Positions 7,128-50,046 of a stretch of 64,000 nt of DNA are shown one piece after another (the first letter of the stretch is position 1; every line of letters starts with the position of its first letter). Where the stretch lies: the NCBI RefSeq assembly GCF_000763375.1, contig NZ_JPSY01000002.1:371579-435578 (forward strand), written 5' to 3'. A program made the position numbers and the translations under genes. The stretch is from Microbacterium profundi (GTDB taxonomy: Bacteria; Actinomycetota; Actinomycetes; Actinomycetales; Microbacteriaceae). Below the pieces are notes generated by a model. The model ran no database searches. It saw nothing but the letters and a program-made list of their open reading frames with translations, and had not been told where the DNA came from.

Positions 7128-7152
7128 CCCTTCGACAGGCTCAGGGATCGGG
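7128..7152 (+). repeat. Dispersed palindromic repeat, copy 1 (cccttcgacaggctcaggg)
   Basis: The element begins directly after the DUF3039 stop, between two convergent genes. CCCT and AGGG ends can pair, so it may act as a weak terminator. Related copies lie at 41018 inside pheT and at 48953 before argC. Confidence 0.65.
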
Positions 7153-40798: not shown

Positions 40799-43332
40799 TG
40801 CGCGTCCCGCTTTCGTGGTTGCGTGAGTACGTCGATGTGGCGCCGGATGCCACGGCAGAGGACATCCTCGAGTCGTTGGTGACCGTCGGTTTCGAAGAAG
40901 AGGAGATCCACCGCTTCGAGATCTCCGGTCCTGTCGTCGTCGGGCAGGTGCTGTCCTTCGAGGCCGAACCGCAGTCCAACGGCAAGACGATCCGCTGGTG
41001 CCAGGTCGATGTCGGCACTTCGACAGGGTCAGGGACCGAGATCGCCGCCAGCGGCGATCGAGACATTCGAGGCATCGTCTGCGGCGCGAGCAACTTCGCC
41101 GTCGGAGACAAGGTCGTGGTGACGCTGCCGGGTGCTGTGCTGCCAGGCCCGTTCCCGATCGCCGCGCGCAAGACCTATGGTCATGTGTCCGACGGCATGA
41201 TCGCGTCGGCGCGTGAGCTCGGCCTGGGCGATGAGCACGACGGCATCCTGATCCTGTCCTCGCTCGGCATCGACGCGCCGGTCGGTGCGGATGCGATCGC
41301 CCTGCTGGGCCTTGATGACGTCGCCGTCGAGATCAACGTCACCCCCGACCGCGGGTATGCCTTCTCGATCCGCGGCGTGGCCCGCGAGTACGCGCACGCT
41401 ACCGGCGCAGACTTCCGCGACCCTGCGGAGCACGAGTGGTCGGAGGTGGAACCCGGTACCGGATTCCCGATCACCGTCGATGCGGAGCCGTTGCGCGAGA
41501 ATCCTGCCGTGCAGGAATTCGTCGTGCGCGTCGTGCGCGATGTCGACCCCTCCCGTCCGACGCCGCCGTGGATGGTCGCGCGGCTTTCGCTCGCCGGCAT
41601 CCGCTCGCTGGGCGTGCTCATCGACATCACCAACTACGTGATGCTCGAGTTGGGCAACCCGATCCACGGGTACGACCTCGACAAGCTCTCCGGCGGCATC
41701 ACGGTTCGTCGCGCACAGCACGGCGAGAAGATGAAGACGCTCGACGGTCAGGAGCGCACGCTCCACGTCGAAGATCTGCTCATCACCGATGACTCCGGTC
41801 CGATCGGCCTCGCCGGCGTCATGGGTGGCGGCACGACAGAGATGGGCGATGAGACGCGCAACGTGCTCATCGAGGCCGCGATCTTCGATCCGATCTCGAT
41901 CGCCCGCAGCGCGCGTCGGCACAAGCTGCCCAGCGAGGCATCCAAGCGTTTCGAGCGCGGGGTCGACCCGCTGGTGCCGTTCGCCGCAGCGCGACGTGTG
42001 GCAGACCTCATGGTCGAGCTCGCAGGCGGCCTTATCGACGAGGTGGGCGGAGCACTGTTCTCCGACGTCGAGATCGCAGGCATCGCGCTGTCCGCCGAGT
42101 TCGTCCCCGGTCTCATCGGTGTCGACTACACGGATCAGGAGATCGTCGACGCGCTCGAGACGATCGGCGCGGAGGTCACCGAGACCTCGAACGGCTGGCA
42201 GGTCATCCCGCCGAGCTGGCGTCCCGATCTCACCGACAAGTGGACGCTGGCGGAGGAGGTCGCCCGTATCCACGGGCTGGACCGCATCCCTTCCGTGCTG
42301 CCGACGCCGCCATCCGGGCGCGGGCTCACCGCGCTGCAGCAGGGGCGCCGTCGCGTCGCGAACGCGCTGGCCGCTGCCGGGCTCGTCGAGACGCCCGCCT
42401 TCCCGTTCACCACCGAGGCGCATAACGATCTGCACGGTTCGGCGTCGGGGGAGCACCTTCCGAGCATCAAGCTCGCGAATCCGCTCGACGGGCAGGCGCC
42501 GTTCCTGCGCCGCTCGCTGATCCCCGGTCTGCTGCAGATCGCGCACCGCAACATCGCGCGCGGACTCACCGACCTCGCGATCTTCGAGACCGGAGCCGTG
42601 TTCCTGCCGGAACCGGGCGTCGTGTACGGCACGGATGAGGTGCCGCCGCTGGGTCAGCGACCCTCGGACGAGACTCTCGCCGAGCTCAACGCCTCGATCC
42701 CGCCGCAGCACCGCCATGTCGCCGCGCTCTTCACCGGCAACGCGACGGTCCGCCAGCCCGGACGCGCAGCGGAGGCCGTAGGGCTGACGGATGCTCTGGA
42801 TGCTGTGCGCGTCATCGCGGTCGCATCCGGAGTCGAGATCGTCGTGGCGCAGGGACAGCGCGCGGCGCTGCACCCTGGACGCACCGGAGTGCTGAGCGTC
42901 GATGGCGTCGAGGTCGGCTACGTCGGCGAACTGCACCCGGATGTCGCAGCCGACGCTGATCTGCCCGGTCGCGCTGTGGTGCTGGAGCTCGATCTGGACG
43001 GCGTCCTGTCGCTGGCGGGAAACCGCGTCGTCGCCGCGTCGCTGTCGACGTACCCGGCCGCGACGCAGGATGTGTCGTTGGTCGTTCCAGACTCGGTGAC
43101 GGCGGACGAGCTGCGCGCTGCTCTCGTCGAAGGTGCCGGCGAACTGCTGGAGTCGCTGCGACTGGTCGACGACTACCGCGGTGAGGGCATCACTGAGGGC
43201 GAGAAGAGCCTGACGTTCGCGCTGCGTTTTCGCGCCGAGGATCGTACGCTGACTGCGGCCGAGGCGACCGAGGCGAAGCTCGCCGGCGTGGCTGTCGCGG
43301 CTGAGCGCTTCGGGGCGACCTTGCGCGAGTAG
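40798..43332 (+). CDS. pheT: Phenylalanyl-tRNA synthetase beta subunit
   Basis: An 844-residue subunit. It has an N-terminal tRNA-binding (EMAP-like) domain at about 40-150, with NGKTIRWCQVDVG and GIVCGASNFAVGDKVVV. The B3/B4 editing and B5 regions follow, then a catalytic-like core and the C-terminal anticodon-binding FDX-ACB domain (about 750-844, LSTYPAATQDVSLVV). Residues 74-90, between VDVG and RGIVCGA, form an insertion that begins with a copy of the dispersed repeat (see 41018). ATG 40798 is chosen; GTG 40795 is one codon earlier. Confidence 0.95.
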   Translation: MRVPLSWLREYVDVAPDATAEDILESLVTVGFEEEEIHRFEISGPVVVGQVLSFEAEPQSNGKTIRWCQVDVGTSTGSGTEIAASGDRDIRGIVCGASNFAVGDKVVVTLPGAVLPGPFPIAARKTYGHVSDGMIASARELGLGDEHDGILILSSLGIDAPVGADAIALLGLDDVAVEINVTPDRGYAFSIRGVAREYAHATGADFRDPAEHEWSEVEPGTGFPITVDAEPLRENPAVQEFVVRVVRDVDPSRPTPPWMVARLSLAGIRSLGVLIDITNYVMLELGNPIHGYDLDKLSGGITVRRAQHGEKMKTLDGQERTLHVEDLLITDDSGPIGLAGVMGGGTTEMGDETRNVLIEAAIFDPISIARSARRHKLPSEASKRFERGVDPLVPFAAARRVADLMVELAGGLIDEVGGALFSDVEIAGIALSAEFVPGLIGVDYTDQEIVDALETIGAEVTETSNGWQVIPPSWRPDLTDKWTLAEEVARIHGLDRIPSVLPTPPSGRGLTALQQGRRRVANALAAAGLVETPAFPFTTEAHNDLHGSASGEHLPSIKLANPLDGQAPFLRRSLIPGLLQIAHRNIARGLTDLAIFETGAVFLPEPGVVYGTDEVPPLGQRPSDETLAELNASIPPQHRHVAALFTGNATVRQPGRAAEAVGLTDALDAVRVIAVASGVEIVVAQGQRAALHPGRTGVLSVDGVEVGYVGELHPDVAADADLPGRAVVLELDLDGVLSLAGNRVVAASLSTYPAATQDVSLVVPDSVTADELRAALVEGAGELLESLRLVDDYRGEGITEGEKSLTFALRFRAEDRTLTAAEATEAKLAGVAVAAERFGATLRE
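41018..41040 (+). repeat. Dispersed palindromic repeat, copy 2 (inside pheT)
   Basis: The bases cttcgacagggtcagggacc match the intergenic copies at 7128 and 48953 (22 of 25 positions against the latter). Here they encode residues 74-81 (TSTGSGTE) of PheT, in a surface loop where homologues are shorter. Confidence 0.65.
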
Positions 43333-45551: not shown

Positions 45552-46421
45552 ATGAGCGATCTTCTGTGCCCACCGTCCGCCCTCCCCGTAGTCGCCGACG
45601 CGATGCGACTGCTCGAGCTGGTGCGTGAGGCACCACCGCTCACCCATTGCATCACCAACGCCGTCGTCACCGGCTTCACCGCCAACGTTCTGCTCGCCGT
45701 CGGCGCGGCACCGGCGATGGTCGACATCGTCGGCGAATCCGAGCTCTTCGCCGGCATCGCGACCGGTGTGCTCATCAACCTCGGCACCCCCACACCTGAG
45801 CAGCGTGCTGCCGGCCTCGAGGCAGCCGCAGGCGCGACTGCCGCGGGAACACCGTGGGTGCTCGATCCGGTGGCGATCGGCGCACTGCCGGTGCGCACCG
45901 CGCACGCGCAGAGCCTGGTCGAGCAGCGCCCGACGGCGATCAGGGGGAACGCGTCAGAGATCCTGGCACTCGCGGGCCTGAGCGCGGGCGGTCGCGGAGT
46001 GGACGCGACGGATTCGCCGGATGCCGCGGCAGAAGCTGCCCTTCTGCTCGCGACCCGCTACGGCAGCGTCGTCGCTGTGTCGGGTCCGGTCGACCTCATC
46101 ACCGACGGGGAGCGCACATACCGCGTCGCGAACGGCGACGAGCTGCTCACCCGCGTCACCGGCGGCGGCTGTGCGCTCGGCGCGGTCATGGCCGCGTTCC
46201 TGGGCGCAGCGCACGGGAGTCGGATCTCGCCGCTCACCGCCGTCACAGCGGCGACCCTGTTTTACACGGTCGCCGCAGAGCGCGCCGCTGCGCGATCCAC
46301 AGGGCCCGGCAGTTTCGCGGTCGCGTTCCTCGATGAACTCGCAGCCACGACACCCGCAGACCTCTCAGGTGCCGCGCGCGTCGCAGATGCCGGTGCGCAC
46401 GTGACCGAGGTCGCCTCATGA
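45552..46421 (+). CDS. thiM: Hydroxyethylthiazole kinase
   Basis: A 289-residue ribokinase-like enzyme that phosphorylates the thiazole alcohol for thiamine salvage. It has [28 protein letters not shown] at the N-terminus and the anion-hole/catalytic Cys motif [18 protein letters not shown] 45552 is chosen over ATG 45543; both lie at the riboswitch end. It overlaps the fusion gene by four bases. Confidence 0.95.
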
Positions 46422-48631
46422 TCGATCTGTCGCTGTACCTCGTCACGGACCCCGTGCTGTGCGGCGAGCGAGGAGTCGTCGAGGTCGTTCGCGAAGCAGT
46501 CGCCGGGGGCGTGAGCATCGTCCAGCTGCGCGACAAGACCGCGACCGACGCGCAGATCGTCGAACAGCTCATCGAGCTGTCCGATGTCATCGCCGGGCGA
46601 GCAGCGCTCGTCGTGAACGACCGGTTGGATGCGGCACTCGACGCACGTGCTCGAGGCGCCCGCGTCGACGGCGTCCACCTGGGTCAGTCCGACGTCTCGG
46701 TCCAACGCGCGAGGGAACTGCTCGGACCCGCTGCGATCATCGGCCTGACCGCGAACACCGCAGCGCACCTCGACGCCGTGCGCGCACTTCCTGCAGGAAC
46801 GATCGACCATCTCGGCGTGGGAGTGATCCGGCCGACCAGCACCAAGCCCGATCACCCGGAGACTCTGGGGATCGAGGGGTTCCGCGCATTCGCAGAGCGC
46901 AGCGAGTTCCCCTGCGTCGCCATCGGCGGTGTCGGGATCGATGACGTCGACGCACTCCGCGACGCCGGAGCAGCAGGGCTCGCTGTGGTCTCCGCCCTCT
47001 GCGCTGCGGATGATCCGAGAGCGGCGGCGCGTGCGTTCCGCCGCCGCTGGAGGGGTGCGGCATCCATTCCCCGTGTCCTCAGCATCGCGGGAAGCGACCC
47101 GTCCGGCGGTGCGGGCATCCAGGCCGACCTGAAGTCCATCGGCGCGAACGGCGGCTACGGGATGGCCGCGATCACGGCGCTCACTGTGCAGAACACGCAA
47201 GAGGTCCTGGCGGTGCATGTGCCTCCCGCCGACTTCCTGCGTGAACAGCTCGACGCACTGGCCGACGACATCGACATCGATGCCGTGAAGATCGGGATGC
47301 TCGCGGATGCGGAAGTAATCCGCACCGTCATCGCCTGGCTCGACGACGTACACCCGCCGATCGTCGTCGTCGATCCGGTGATGGTCGCGACGAGCGGAGA
47401 CCGCCTGCTCGAGGCGGACGCCGAGGAAGCCTTGCGCGATCTGCTCATGCGCGCCGACCTGGTCACTCCCAACCTCCTCGAACTCGCCGTGCTGGCGGGC
47501 GCGACGGTCGCAGCCGACTGGTCGGCAGCGATCGTGGACGCGGAGCGTCTGTCCGCCGACCTCGGCGCGGCCGTGCTCGTCAAGGGAGGCCATCTCGGCG
47601 GCGATCAATCGCCCGATGCGTTCGTGGACGCGGCGACGGCCACCGTTCAGGAGTTCGCCGGCATGCGGATAGACACGGATGCGACGCACGGCACAGGCTG
47701 CTCGCTGTCGTCCGCCCTCGCCACTCAGCGCGCGTTGGGGAAGGAGTGGCCCGAGGCTGTGACCGCGGCACGGGAGTGGCTGCGGGAGTCCTTGCGCGCC
47801 GGTACGGCGCTGCAGGTCGGCCTCGGCCACGGTCCGATCGATCATTTCGCCGGGCTCCGCGCACGCGGCGGCCTCGACACCTCTCCCACGAGCGACGAGG
47901 TCGTGACGCAGTGGTGGGAGCACATCGCATCGACCCGCGCGGGTATCGACGAACTGCCGTTCATCCGCGCGCTTGCCGACGGAACGCTCGACCGGGGTGC
48001 GTTCATCCACTACCTCGCGCAGGATGCCCTCTACCTCAGCGGGTACGCACGTGTGCTCGCTGACGCGGCACGGCTCGCTCCGACAGCGGCGGAGCAGGCG
48101 TTCTGGGCGAACTCCGCGCACGGCTCGATCGTCGGGGAACTGGAGCTGCACGCGCAGTGGCTCACACCGGGTGGCGGCGTCAGCGATGAAACCTTCTCGG
48201 CGGCGCCGTCCACCACGACGACCGCGTACCTGGACCACCTCCGATCCACGGCGTACGCCGGCGACTACGCGCAGCTGATCGCCGCGCTGCTGCCGTGCTT
48301 CTGGCTGTACACCGATCTCGGAACGCGGCTGGGTGACGGCCGTTTCGGCGAGTACGCTCGGTCGCCGGCGCATCCGTATGCGTCGTGGTTGCACACGTAT
48401 GCGGACGAGTCGTTCGCCGAGGCCACGCGGCAGGCGATCGAGTACGTCGCGTCAGCGGCGGCGGCATCCGATGCTGCCGGCCGAGGGCGGATGCTGCGTG
48501 CGTTCGAAGCCTCCGCACAGCACGAGCTCGCCTTCTTCGCGGAACCGCTCGAGCATGACCGATCGAGCATCATCCGACGCGCATCCGCTTTGAGCAGATC
48601 ATCGTCCGCACGGGAGCCGAAGATGGCGTGA
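46418..48631 (+). CDS. thiED: ThiE-ThiD-TenA trifunctional thiamine enzyme
   Basis: A 737-residue fusion of three enzymes. Residues 1-212 are ThiE thiamine-phosphate synthase ([32 protein letters not shown]). Residues 216-478 are ThiD HMP(-P) kinase ([31 protein letters not shown] at 424-433). Residues 495-720 are a TenA-like domain ([29 protein letters not shown], Cys627 in [14 protein letters not shown]). TenA hydrolyses salvaged aminopyrimidine to HMP, so this single chain takes salvaged pyrimidine to thiamine phosphate using thiazole phosphate from ThiM. It is coupled to thiM by ATGA and sits under the TPP riboswitch. Confidence 0.93.
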
Positions 48632-48638
48632 TGGGCAC

Positions 48639-48730
48639 ATGACTGACGTGCTCATTCTCGGCGGGACGGCGTGGGTGTCCGGCCTGCACGGCGAGAGCAC
48701 CCAGTCTCGTTCCTGATCGAGGCGCTGTAG
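48639..48730 (+). pseudogene. NAD-dependent epimerase/dehydratase remnant
   Basis: MTDVLILGGTAWVSG is the nucleotide-binding N-terminus of an extended SDR. After 15 codons the homology stops. In another frame, HPVSFLIEAL then a TAG looks like the natural C-terminus. The whole middle, about 300 codons, is gone. It starts eight bases after the thiED-tenA stop. Confidence 0.45.
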
Positions 48731-48778
48731 CGACCGGTCGATTTGCGCATCGCACCGCCACGACGCTACTGTCACCAC

Positions 48779-48886
48779 ATGCCTTCGGCTGCATCCGCCT
48801 CTTCGACGCTCGCCCCGAGCGTCACCGTGGTGCGCCGACGCCGTAGCCGCCGGTCTCTGAACCTGACGAGCGGCCGCCGACTCTAG
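48779..48886 (+). CDS. Arg-rich leader-peptide-like small ORF upstream of argC
   Basis: A 35-codon frame whose second half reads VVRRRRSRRSLNLTSGRRL: eight Arg codons, six of them within seven positions (19-25), using four different CGN codons. A TACTGT -10 box (48767-48772) ends six bases before the ATG, the same leaderless layout as proven genes in this window. The ORF ends 116 bases before argC. Downstream are gtgctc/gagcac (48895-48935) and ggacc-gaga-ggtcc (48970-48983) hairpins. Leader peptides rich in the end-product amino acid are the hallmark of ribosome-mediated attenuation. This is inference; no homologue is known to me. Confidence 0.5.
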   Translation: MPSAASASSTLAPSVTVVRRRRSRRSLNLTSGRRL

Positions 48887-48952
48887 GCGACCCCGTGCTC
48901 CCCGAACGTCGAATGCCGACGAGAGGGTCGAGCACCGGTGTCGCCGCCTCTG

Positions 48953-48982
48953 CCCTTCGACAAGCTCAGGGACCGAGAGGTC
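48953..48982 (+). repeat. Dispersed palindromic repeat, copy 3 (before argC)
   Basis: It reads cccttcgacaagctcaggga then ccgagag, matching 7128 and 41018. It lies between the Arg-rich ORF and argC and partly overlaps the ggacc/ggtcc hairpin, so it may contribute a terminator-like fold. Confidence 0.65.
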
Positions 48983-49002
48983 CAGACCGTTAAGGTAGAA
49001 AC

Positions 49003-50046
49003 ATGACGTATTCCGTCGCCGTCTCCGGCGCATCCGGCTATGCGGGAGGCGAGATCCTGCGCCTGCTCGCCGGCCACCCGGACATCGAGATCCGCACCGT
49101 CACCGCGCATTCCAATGCAGGCCAGCCGCTGATCCAGCACCAACCGCACCTGCGCTCGCTCGCGCACCTCACTCTGCAGGACACCACCCCCGAGATCCTC
49201 GCGGGTCACGACATCGTCTTCCTCGCGCTGCCGCACGGCCAGTCCGGTCAGTACACGGATGCTCTGGGCGAAGTCCCGCTCGTGATCGACGCGGGCGCCG
49301 ACCACCGCCTTACCTCCCGCGAATCGTGGGATGCGTTCTACGGCGGCGACTTCCATGAGCCATGGGCGTACGGCGTGCCGGAACTCCCGGTCGACGACGG
49401 CAAGCAGCGCGAAGTTCTTCGCCGCGCGACGCGCATCGCCGCCCCTGGATGCAACGCCTCGACCGTGAACCTCAGCCTCGCACCCGGCGTCGCCGCGGGA
49501 GTGATCGACCCGAGCGACATCGTCGCTGTGCTGGCGGTCGGTCCGTCCGGGGCGGGCAAGAGCCTCAAGACGAATCTTCTCGCGAGCGAGATCCTCGGCA
49601 GCGCCAACCCCTACGCCGTCGGCGGCACGCATCGGCACATCCCGGAGATCCGGCAGGCGCTGCTCGCGGCGGGCGCGGACGACGTGCGCATCTCGTTCAC
49701 CCCCGTCCTCGTGCCGATGGCGCGCGGCATCCTCGCCACCTCGACGGCGCCGATCGTCGACGGCGTCACAGATGCCGAGATCCGCGCGGCGTGGGAGAAC
49801 GCGTACGGTGACGAGACCTTCGTGCAGCTCCTGCCAGAGGGGCAGTTCCCTCGCACCGCAGACGTCATCGGCGCGAACACCGCTCTGATCGGACTCGCCA
49901 TCGATCGTGCCGCCGGTCGCGTCACGGTCGTCACCGCCGTTGACAACCTCGTCAAAGGCACGGCGGGAGCCGCCATCCAGTCCATGAACCTCGCGCTCGG
50001 ACTCCCTGAGGACCGGGCGCTGTCACTGAACGGAGTCGCGCCATGA
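49003..50046 (+). CDS. argC: N-acetyl-gamma-glutamyl-phosphate reductase
   Basis: A 347-residue NADPH enzyme, third step of arginine synthesis. It has the Rossmann start [18 protein letters not shown] and catalytic Cys150 in [17 protein letters not shown] at 48991-48996 ends six bases before the ATG; it can be read as a -10 box of a leaderless promoter, or AAGGTAG as a ribosome site for a longer transcript from the upstream small ORF. It begins a chain of five arg genes with four-base overlaps. Confidence 0.95.

Follow-up and report, generated by a model that had tools for sequence, protein, structure and literature searches.

What controls the argCJBDF operon of Microbacterium profundi, and does the short arginine-rich ORF in front of it take part? 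The window, that is, the whole 64,000-nucleotide stretch of DNA analysed, contains argC (the closest named ArgC is that of M. murale, 95% identical), followed by genes that we take from their sequences to be argJ, argB, argD and argF. A sequence-only reading had described the ORF as a leaderless frame of 35 codons with its own TACTGT element, eight Arg codons and a gap of 116 bases to argC, and had proposed that it is an arginine attenuator. Re-reading the sequence bore out these details. The ORF encodes MPSAASASSTLAPSVTVVRRRRSRRSLNLTSGRRL*, with its ATG six bases behind the end of TACTGT and its stop 116 bases ahead of the argC ATG (49003). The Arg residues are R19-R22, R24, R25, R33 and R34, and six of them fall within seven positions. 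The features are listed in Table 1. We consider it quite probable that this leaderless leader peptide forms the basis of a ribosome-mediated arginine attenuator, including the switch predicted between segments 2 and 3 of its RNA.

Table 1 Features of the argC leader region, in window coordinates.
Feature	Coordinates	Strand	Basis
Promoter P1: GATTTGC (48740-48746), 20 bases, TACTGT -10 (48767-48772)	48740..48772	+	Conservation
Leaderless Arg-rich leader ORF, 35 codons	48779..48886	+	Strict detector in Microbacterium and other-genus loci
Hairpin 0 within the leader ORF, GACGCTCG-CCC-CGAGCGTC, 5' of the Arg codons	48805..48823	+	Perfect-hairpin count
Arg codon cluster R19-R22, R24, R25 (CGC CGA CGC CGT AGC CGC CGG), proposed stall site	48833..48853	+	Arg runs in relatives
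Segment 1: CGCCGA (Arg33-Arg34)	48875..48880	+	CGC CGA in 101/101 ORFs ending RRx*
Segment 2: GGCGAC over the TAG stop; can pair with segment 1 or 3	48886..48891	+	Folding, covariation
Segment 3: GTCGCCG, partner of segment 2	48940..48946	+	Position, covariation, stalled/finished folding
REP-like repeat CCCTTCGACAAGCTCAGGG, lying after segment 3 and before argC	48953..48971	+	Three window copies
TAAGGT: SD-like AAGG (48992-48995) serving argC on the long transcript; may double as a -10	48991..48996	+	SD versus leader association
argC, which opens the argCJBDF run; proposed target of the regulation	49003..50046	+	Pfam Semialdhyde_dh families

We searched for comparable leaders with a strict detector, which required a TANNNT element, an ATG or GTG 6-7 nt on, a frame of 15-60 aa with at least three Arg in nine residues, and a position 100-345 nt before argC. 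The search covered 110 Microbacterium loci, drawn from 146 genomes of the genus with an argC match, and 60 loci from other Microbacteriaceae genera, covering 58 genera (argC was found in 237 of 249 genomes). The detector was positive at 142 of the 170 family loci. One of these (L114) was then set aside, as its frame resembles the 3' end of the upstream gene, which we take to be pheT. This left the leader before argC at 108 of the 110 Microbacterium loci and 33 of the 60 other-genus loci. Two further other-genus loci (L125 and L158) have a leader under relaxed criteria only, which gives the 35 of 60 used for the Shine-Dalgarno (SD) count and the argC tree below, and L168 was positive only at the lowest Arg threshold (three in nine). 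Locus L014 begins 52 bases before argC, at a contig edge, and L052 has unrelated sequence there. The latter seemingly lies on the same contig as L217, the sole miss among 80 named loci, a set that overlaps the 110 and 60 loci and carries the leader in 79 cases. The sequence-only reading had staked itself beforehand on relatives having a conserved Arg-run ORF, and this is what we found; the conservation of a leaderless-type, Arg-rich leader before argC supports the attenuator reading.

The same reading had cautioned that Arg-rich runs turn up more readily in GC-rich DNA. CGN codons are common in such sequence, and the run might be a product of chance. At random anchors in the window, the strict detector gave 13 matches in 3000 and 21 in 5000; because 14 of the 21 are this leader itself, the independent matches come to 7 in 5000, against 108 of 110 Microbacterium loci. 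Other families of the order contributed 33 loci, none of them positive and one too short to test. On these counts chance is a negligible explanation. Across the 64 kb, counting both strands, no other ORF of 15-60 aa preceded by TANNNT-N6 has six Arg within seven positions; one other has five. No comparable leader precedes argG in any of 13 Microbacterium genomes.

The promoter is conserved together with the frame. In the 108 Microbacterium leaders, the layout is GATTTGC, 20 bases, TANNNT and an ATG 6-7 nt on; the positions of GATTTGC are 85-96% conserved, while TANNNT was required by the detector. The upstream block is weaker in the 33 other-genus leaders, where a G (0.73) and T (0.67-0.79) stand out. 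The distance of 6-7 nt from the -10 element to the ATG fits a start codon placed at the predicted transcription start. A promoter scan found no match to the sigma-70 consensus, which counts against the attenuator reading. At the 5' end of the leader, 11 bases (48779-48789, ATGCCTTCGGC) are strongly conserved in Microbacterium, at 65-96% per position from the fourth base.

A short conserved frame with an Arg-rich end could instead encode a working small protein that acts in trans. This is very improbable. The leaders vary from 20 to 41 aa and tolerate in-frame inserts and altered ends; in many Microbacterium leaders, the middle part TL.PSV falls on a hairpin; and the final Arg pair is fixed at the nucleotide level, being CGC CGA in each of the 101 Microbacterium ORFs (of 108) that end in RRx*. 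The peptide matched no Pfam family, DUF2618 included, at E 0.001, which is a weak test for a peptide so short. The pattern CGNCGANTCTAGGCGRC had 67 matches in 63 of 99 genomes, and 58 of the 67 lie no more than 180 nt before argC (compared by eye).

At the place of Hairpin 0, 70 of the 108 Microbacterium leaders have a perfect hairpin of at least 6 bp, as do 2 of the 33 from other genera; codon shuffling would give 9.3 in all 141. It is possibly an RNA polymerase pacing hairpin. Among the 99 Microbacterium loci with a run of three Arg codons, the run mostly starts CGC CGA (CGC first in 85, CGA second in 90). CGA accounts for 270 of 924 Arg codons in the leaders, 34 of 1289 in argC (80 loci) and 17 of 225 in nine genes of the window. 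Much of the enrichment is the fixed CGC-CGA pair; once such pairs in the last 14 leader codons are set aside, the share of CGA is 60 of 504. We rejected CGA as a slow-codon signal, as RNA structure accounts for the enrichment equally well.

The bases GGCGAC at the stop codon can pair either with CGCC upstream or with GTCGCC downstream, before argC. Where the stop codon falls further downstream, as it does in some loci, the GGCGAC-like bases are coding (by eye), which suggests that they are kept as RNA. The distance from the CGCCG of segment 3 to argC is 38-50 nt for 31 of the 32 other-genus loci and for 50 of the 106 Microbacterium loci; the remaining loci have extra sequence in between and a longer distance, 61 nt in this window. 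The MFE fold pairs 48886-48900 with 48930-48945 and encloses a first hairpin (48895-48935). The fold of 48779-49062 has a z score of -2.64, and 3 of 200 shuffles were at least as stable. Two hairpins had been singled out from the sequence earlier. The first is part of this longer stem. The second, GGACC-GAGA-GGTCC (48970-48983), exists and overlaps the end of the REP-like copy, but by eye it is not conserved. The likely switching fold is predicted to be the GGCGAC/GTCGCC stem (48886-48945) and not the second hairpin.

We analyzed covariation in this 2:3 stem at the 131 of 140 loci with both anchors, using positions 1-4 as anchors and scoring positions 5-10. Watson-Crick pairs numbered 517, against 482.3 when shuffled, and none of 2000 shuffles reached this value; all standard pairs numbered 573, against 550.8, a value reached by 1 of 2000. 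In two subsets, 41 and 65 of 2000 shuffles attained the standard-pair count and 5 and 50 the Watson-Crick count, and since shuffles ignore relatedness we take the covariation as moderate support for the stem. A mean of 8.36 of its 10 positions are paired, against at most 6.66 when the strands are slid, and position 7 pairs in 35 of the 131 loci.

We then folded the RNA up to argC +3 with ribosome footprints in place, keeping 138 of 140 loci (L114 and L121 were left out of the footprint-folding and covariation sets). When a ribosome occupied the Arg run, the predicted mean probability that segment 3 pairs upstream was 0.79 in Microbacterium (n=106) and 0.82 in the other genera (n=32). With the ribosome at the stop, the values were 0.15 and 0.06, a drop that arises partly by construction because segment 2 is then excluded. 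A further 3:4 hairpin (GCCG and CGGC with 3-6 nt between them, within the final 110 nt) was rejected as a general part of the element, being present in 65 of 108 Microbacterium leaders but only 8 of 33 others. Pairing of the first leader bases (CCTT) with the SD was dropped because leaders in other genera start differently (by eye). Rfam covariance models, including the T-box, gave no match at E up to 1 across 48000-50000.

Promoter, ORF, Arg run and segments are conserved at this locus, and they point to the following course of events. RNA polymerase would start from P1 at the leader AUG, and, judging from this anatomy, a 70S ribosome would initiate on that AUG and translate the Arg-rich frame. 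If Arg-tRNA is scarce, the ribosome would stall in the Arg run and cover segment 1; segment 2 would then be free to pair with segment 3, and argCJBDF would be expressed. Since seven residues separate R25 from R33 here, an early stall in the run would leave segment 1 uncovered. If arginine is plentiful, a ribosome at the stop would cover segment 2 and release segment 3. This release would presumably lower operon expression, most likely through Rho and less likely through a change in argC translation.

The output step was examined for both. TTTT occurs in only 3 of 141 leader regions, and a scan of the window returned no terminator-like site; no intrinsic terminator was found in these searches. 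The stretch from -42 to -14 before argC is C-rich and G-poor (C minus G above 0.1) at all 33 other-genus and at 82 of 108 Microbacterium leader loci. Where no strict leader was present, the same measure holds at 5 of 26 loci, a group that includes L132 and the relaxed-criteria leader loci L125 and L158, and the background is 28%. This window has lost the bias (C minus G -0.03); here the stretch contains the repeat-like copy, and the second hairpin (48970-48983) belongs to the same local sequence. Opening of the C-rich stretch as a whole in the finished state gave p 0.35 and 0.18 with RNA to argC +3, and 0.015 and 0.11 with RNA to +40; of these four comparisons, the one for Microbacterium at +40 was significant. 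The genome encodes Rho, with an RNA-binding match at G000:C1:183696-183920. We tentatively propose, with a chance that we put slightly below even, that Rho acts on the C-rich, G-poor stretch in the released state and lowers operon expression. Rho is preferred because the C-rich stretch marks leader loci, because neither a U-tract nor consistent masking of argC was found, and because Rho is encoded. The Rho RNA-binding match sits in an open frame of 745 aa, which is long for Rho.

Alternatively, the same leader could sense arginine in the same way and act on translation, with the ribosome's position altering access to the argC ribosome-binding site or coupling to it. That no terminator was found agrees with this, and so does the SD-type tetramer before argC, which is present at 34 of 35 other-genus loci with a leader versus 8 of 25 without (Fisher p 4e-8). 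We still consider a translational output unlikely, as footprint folding of 140 loci was inconsistent at the SD and start: between the stalled and finished states (stalled minus finished), the argC start went up in 30 and down in 21. SD masking was accordingly rejected as the output.

The tetramer also bears on the sequence TAAGGT, which the sequence-only reading had offered as a possible promoter for argC itself. If argC were expressed mainly from this leaderless promoter (TAAGGT-N6-ATG), the leader would be a minor uORF. TAAGGT does fit TANNNT at leaderless spacing, and two loci, L087 (TAAGAT) and L160 (TAAGTT), have kept TANNNT and lost AAGG. Many argC loci without the leader have TAGATT-type sites and argG has TAGACT-type sites; among the 25 other-genus loci without the leader ORF, 17 lack an SD-type tetramer and 16 of these have a TANNNT such as TAGATT. 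Against this, seven other-genus leader loci retain an SD-type tetramer and have lost TANNNT, and the leader and RNA segments are retained across many genera. There is also no conserved block at -35 distance from TAAGGT, unlike P1, though the no-leader set shows none either. A minor uORF is in our judgement distinctly improbable. In leader-bearing genomes, TAAGGT is more likely to be a weak Shine-Dalgarno sequence, or an element with both functions, than a promoter in its own right. Its very strict conservation leaves room for a dual role, and TAAGGT may serve as a second promoter.

Elsewhere argC is controlled by ArgR at the ARG box, that is, the same operon and signal are served by a protein repressor. 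The sequence-only reading had noted that argR is absent from the local cluster, and the absence extends much further. ArgR (PF01316) had no match in 148 Microbacterium genomes or in 248 Microbacteriaceae genomes from 85 genera; the control search was positive in 9 of 14 genomes. Across the order, PF01316 was present in 145 of 158 genomes, the 13 negatives being 11 Microbacteriaceae and two others, so that 145 of 147 genomes outside the family carry it. Outside the family, argC is preceded at 31 of 33 loci by sites that resemble TGTATAGTTATGCA at 10 or more of 14 positions and that we take to be the ArgR operator; the figure is partly circular because the consensus was drawn by eye from those loci. 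This does not apply to the 170 Microbacteriaceae loci, none of which exceeds 9 of 14.

This looks like a swap of regulators in Microbacteriaceae, in which the attenuator probably took over from ArgR. Counting against the attenuator reading, 25 of the 60 other-genus loci have no leader, yet these Microbacteriaceae have no ArgR match either. On the argC tree (58 rows), the leader label changes 10 times, at least four of them forced by well-supported branches, in a single gene that does not separate gains from losses. A single origin could not be demonstrated from this patchy tree. We infer an early gain of the leader and several later losses. In a fuller scenario, which we regard as evenly poised between right and wrong, ArgR was lost in the ancestor of Microbacteriaceae and argCJBDF came under a leaderless Arg-codon attenuator that has no intrinsic terminator and probably uses Rho; where the attenuator was lost in turn, argC returned to a plain leaderless promoter. 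If true, a bacterial family has swapped a widespread repressor for a ribosome-read RNA switch.

Attenuators of the trp/his type follow a 1-2-3-4 segment scheme. The argC leader resembles the classical attenuators, among which Seliverstov et al. 2005 (PMC1262725) place actinobacterial trp leaders, in its control codons, in having segment 2 at the stop codon and in its predicted rival 1:2 and 2:3 pairings; as far as the available part of that source goes, it differs in its predicted leaderless start and in that no U-tract terminator was found. For the arginine operons of Actinobacteria, the same part of the paper reports that no conserved RNA structure lies upstream. Our sequences point to a conserved leaderless arginine leader with the classical 1-2-3 geometry and a putative output step.

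The closest parallel is with the leaderless Cys attenuators of mycobacteria (Shell et al. 2015, PMC4633059), whose poly-Cys short ORFs also appear in the title of Canestrari et al. 2020, as cited in PMC9031893, PMC13236596 and PMC9094748. Going by these excerpts and titles, the shared traits are a short ORF, here predicted to be leaderless, a cognate codon run, downstream genes for the same amino acid and an actinobacterial host. Here, the cognate codon run lies near the stop and before the cognate biosynthesis operon. The differences are the Arg codons, the argCJBDF target, the arrangement of segments 1, 2 and 3, and a family whose searched genomes gave no ArgR match. The Arg leader would thus work like the poly-Cys type but is not a member of it, because Arg replaces the Cys codons.

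Arg codons sense arginine in two other leaders. According to the available text on Salmonella speF orf34 (PMC6386406), consecutive Arg codons within the leader ORF do so, and Rho and alternative mRNA folds are involved. That leader, unlike the one before argC, is an SD-led member of the DUF2618 family in an enterobacterium and precedes an ornithine decarboxylase gene, not an arginine biosynthesis operon. The uORF rbfL of S. aureus, in the accessible part of PMC13009471, likewise senses arginine limitation through Arg codons; it differs in having two of them, in a paused ribosome that blocks the downstream RBS and in its target, a biofilm regulator. A paper on sensory uORFs (PMC12121999) adds nothing on arginine operons in its available portion. 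Among the literature matches listed, at most 15 of up to 5,147 per search and with most subscription papers outside the collection, there was no arginine-operon attenuator of the leaderless type. If true, this arginine biosynthesis operon would be governed by a leaderless attenuator, a combination undescribed among those matches, and would offer a clean system for how a ribosome on leaderless mRNA controls expression without a U-tract terminator.

The repeat CCCTTCGACAAGCTCAGGG has copies at 48953-48971, 7128-7146 and 41016-41034 (0, 1 and 3 mismatches). By eye, most relatives have no copy at the first position, and the copy before argC looks like a local insertion outside the conserved element. 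Related repeats in relatives lie in frame inside the leader ORF (L005, L007, L018 and L028, where frame and Arg end stay intact) or after it (L004 and L048), again by eye. At two loci (L114 and L132), argC directly follows the apparent end of a gene that we presume to be pheT; a segment-3-like GTCGCCG is present, no separate leader was found, and the end of the upstream gene may stand in for the leader. Upstream of the leader in this window, a frame of 737 codons (46418-48631) fuses TMP-TENI, Phos_pyr_kin and TENA_THI-4 domains.
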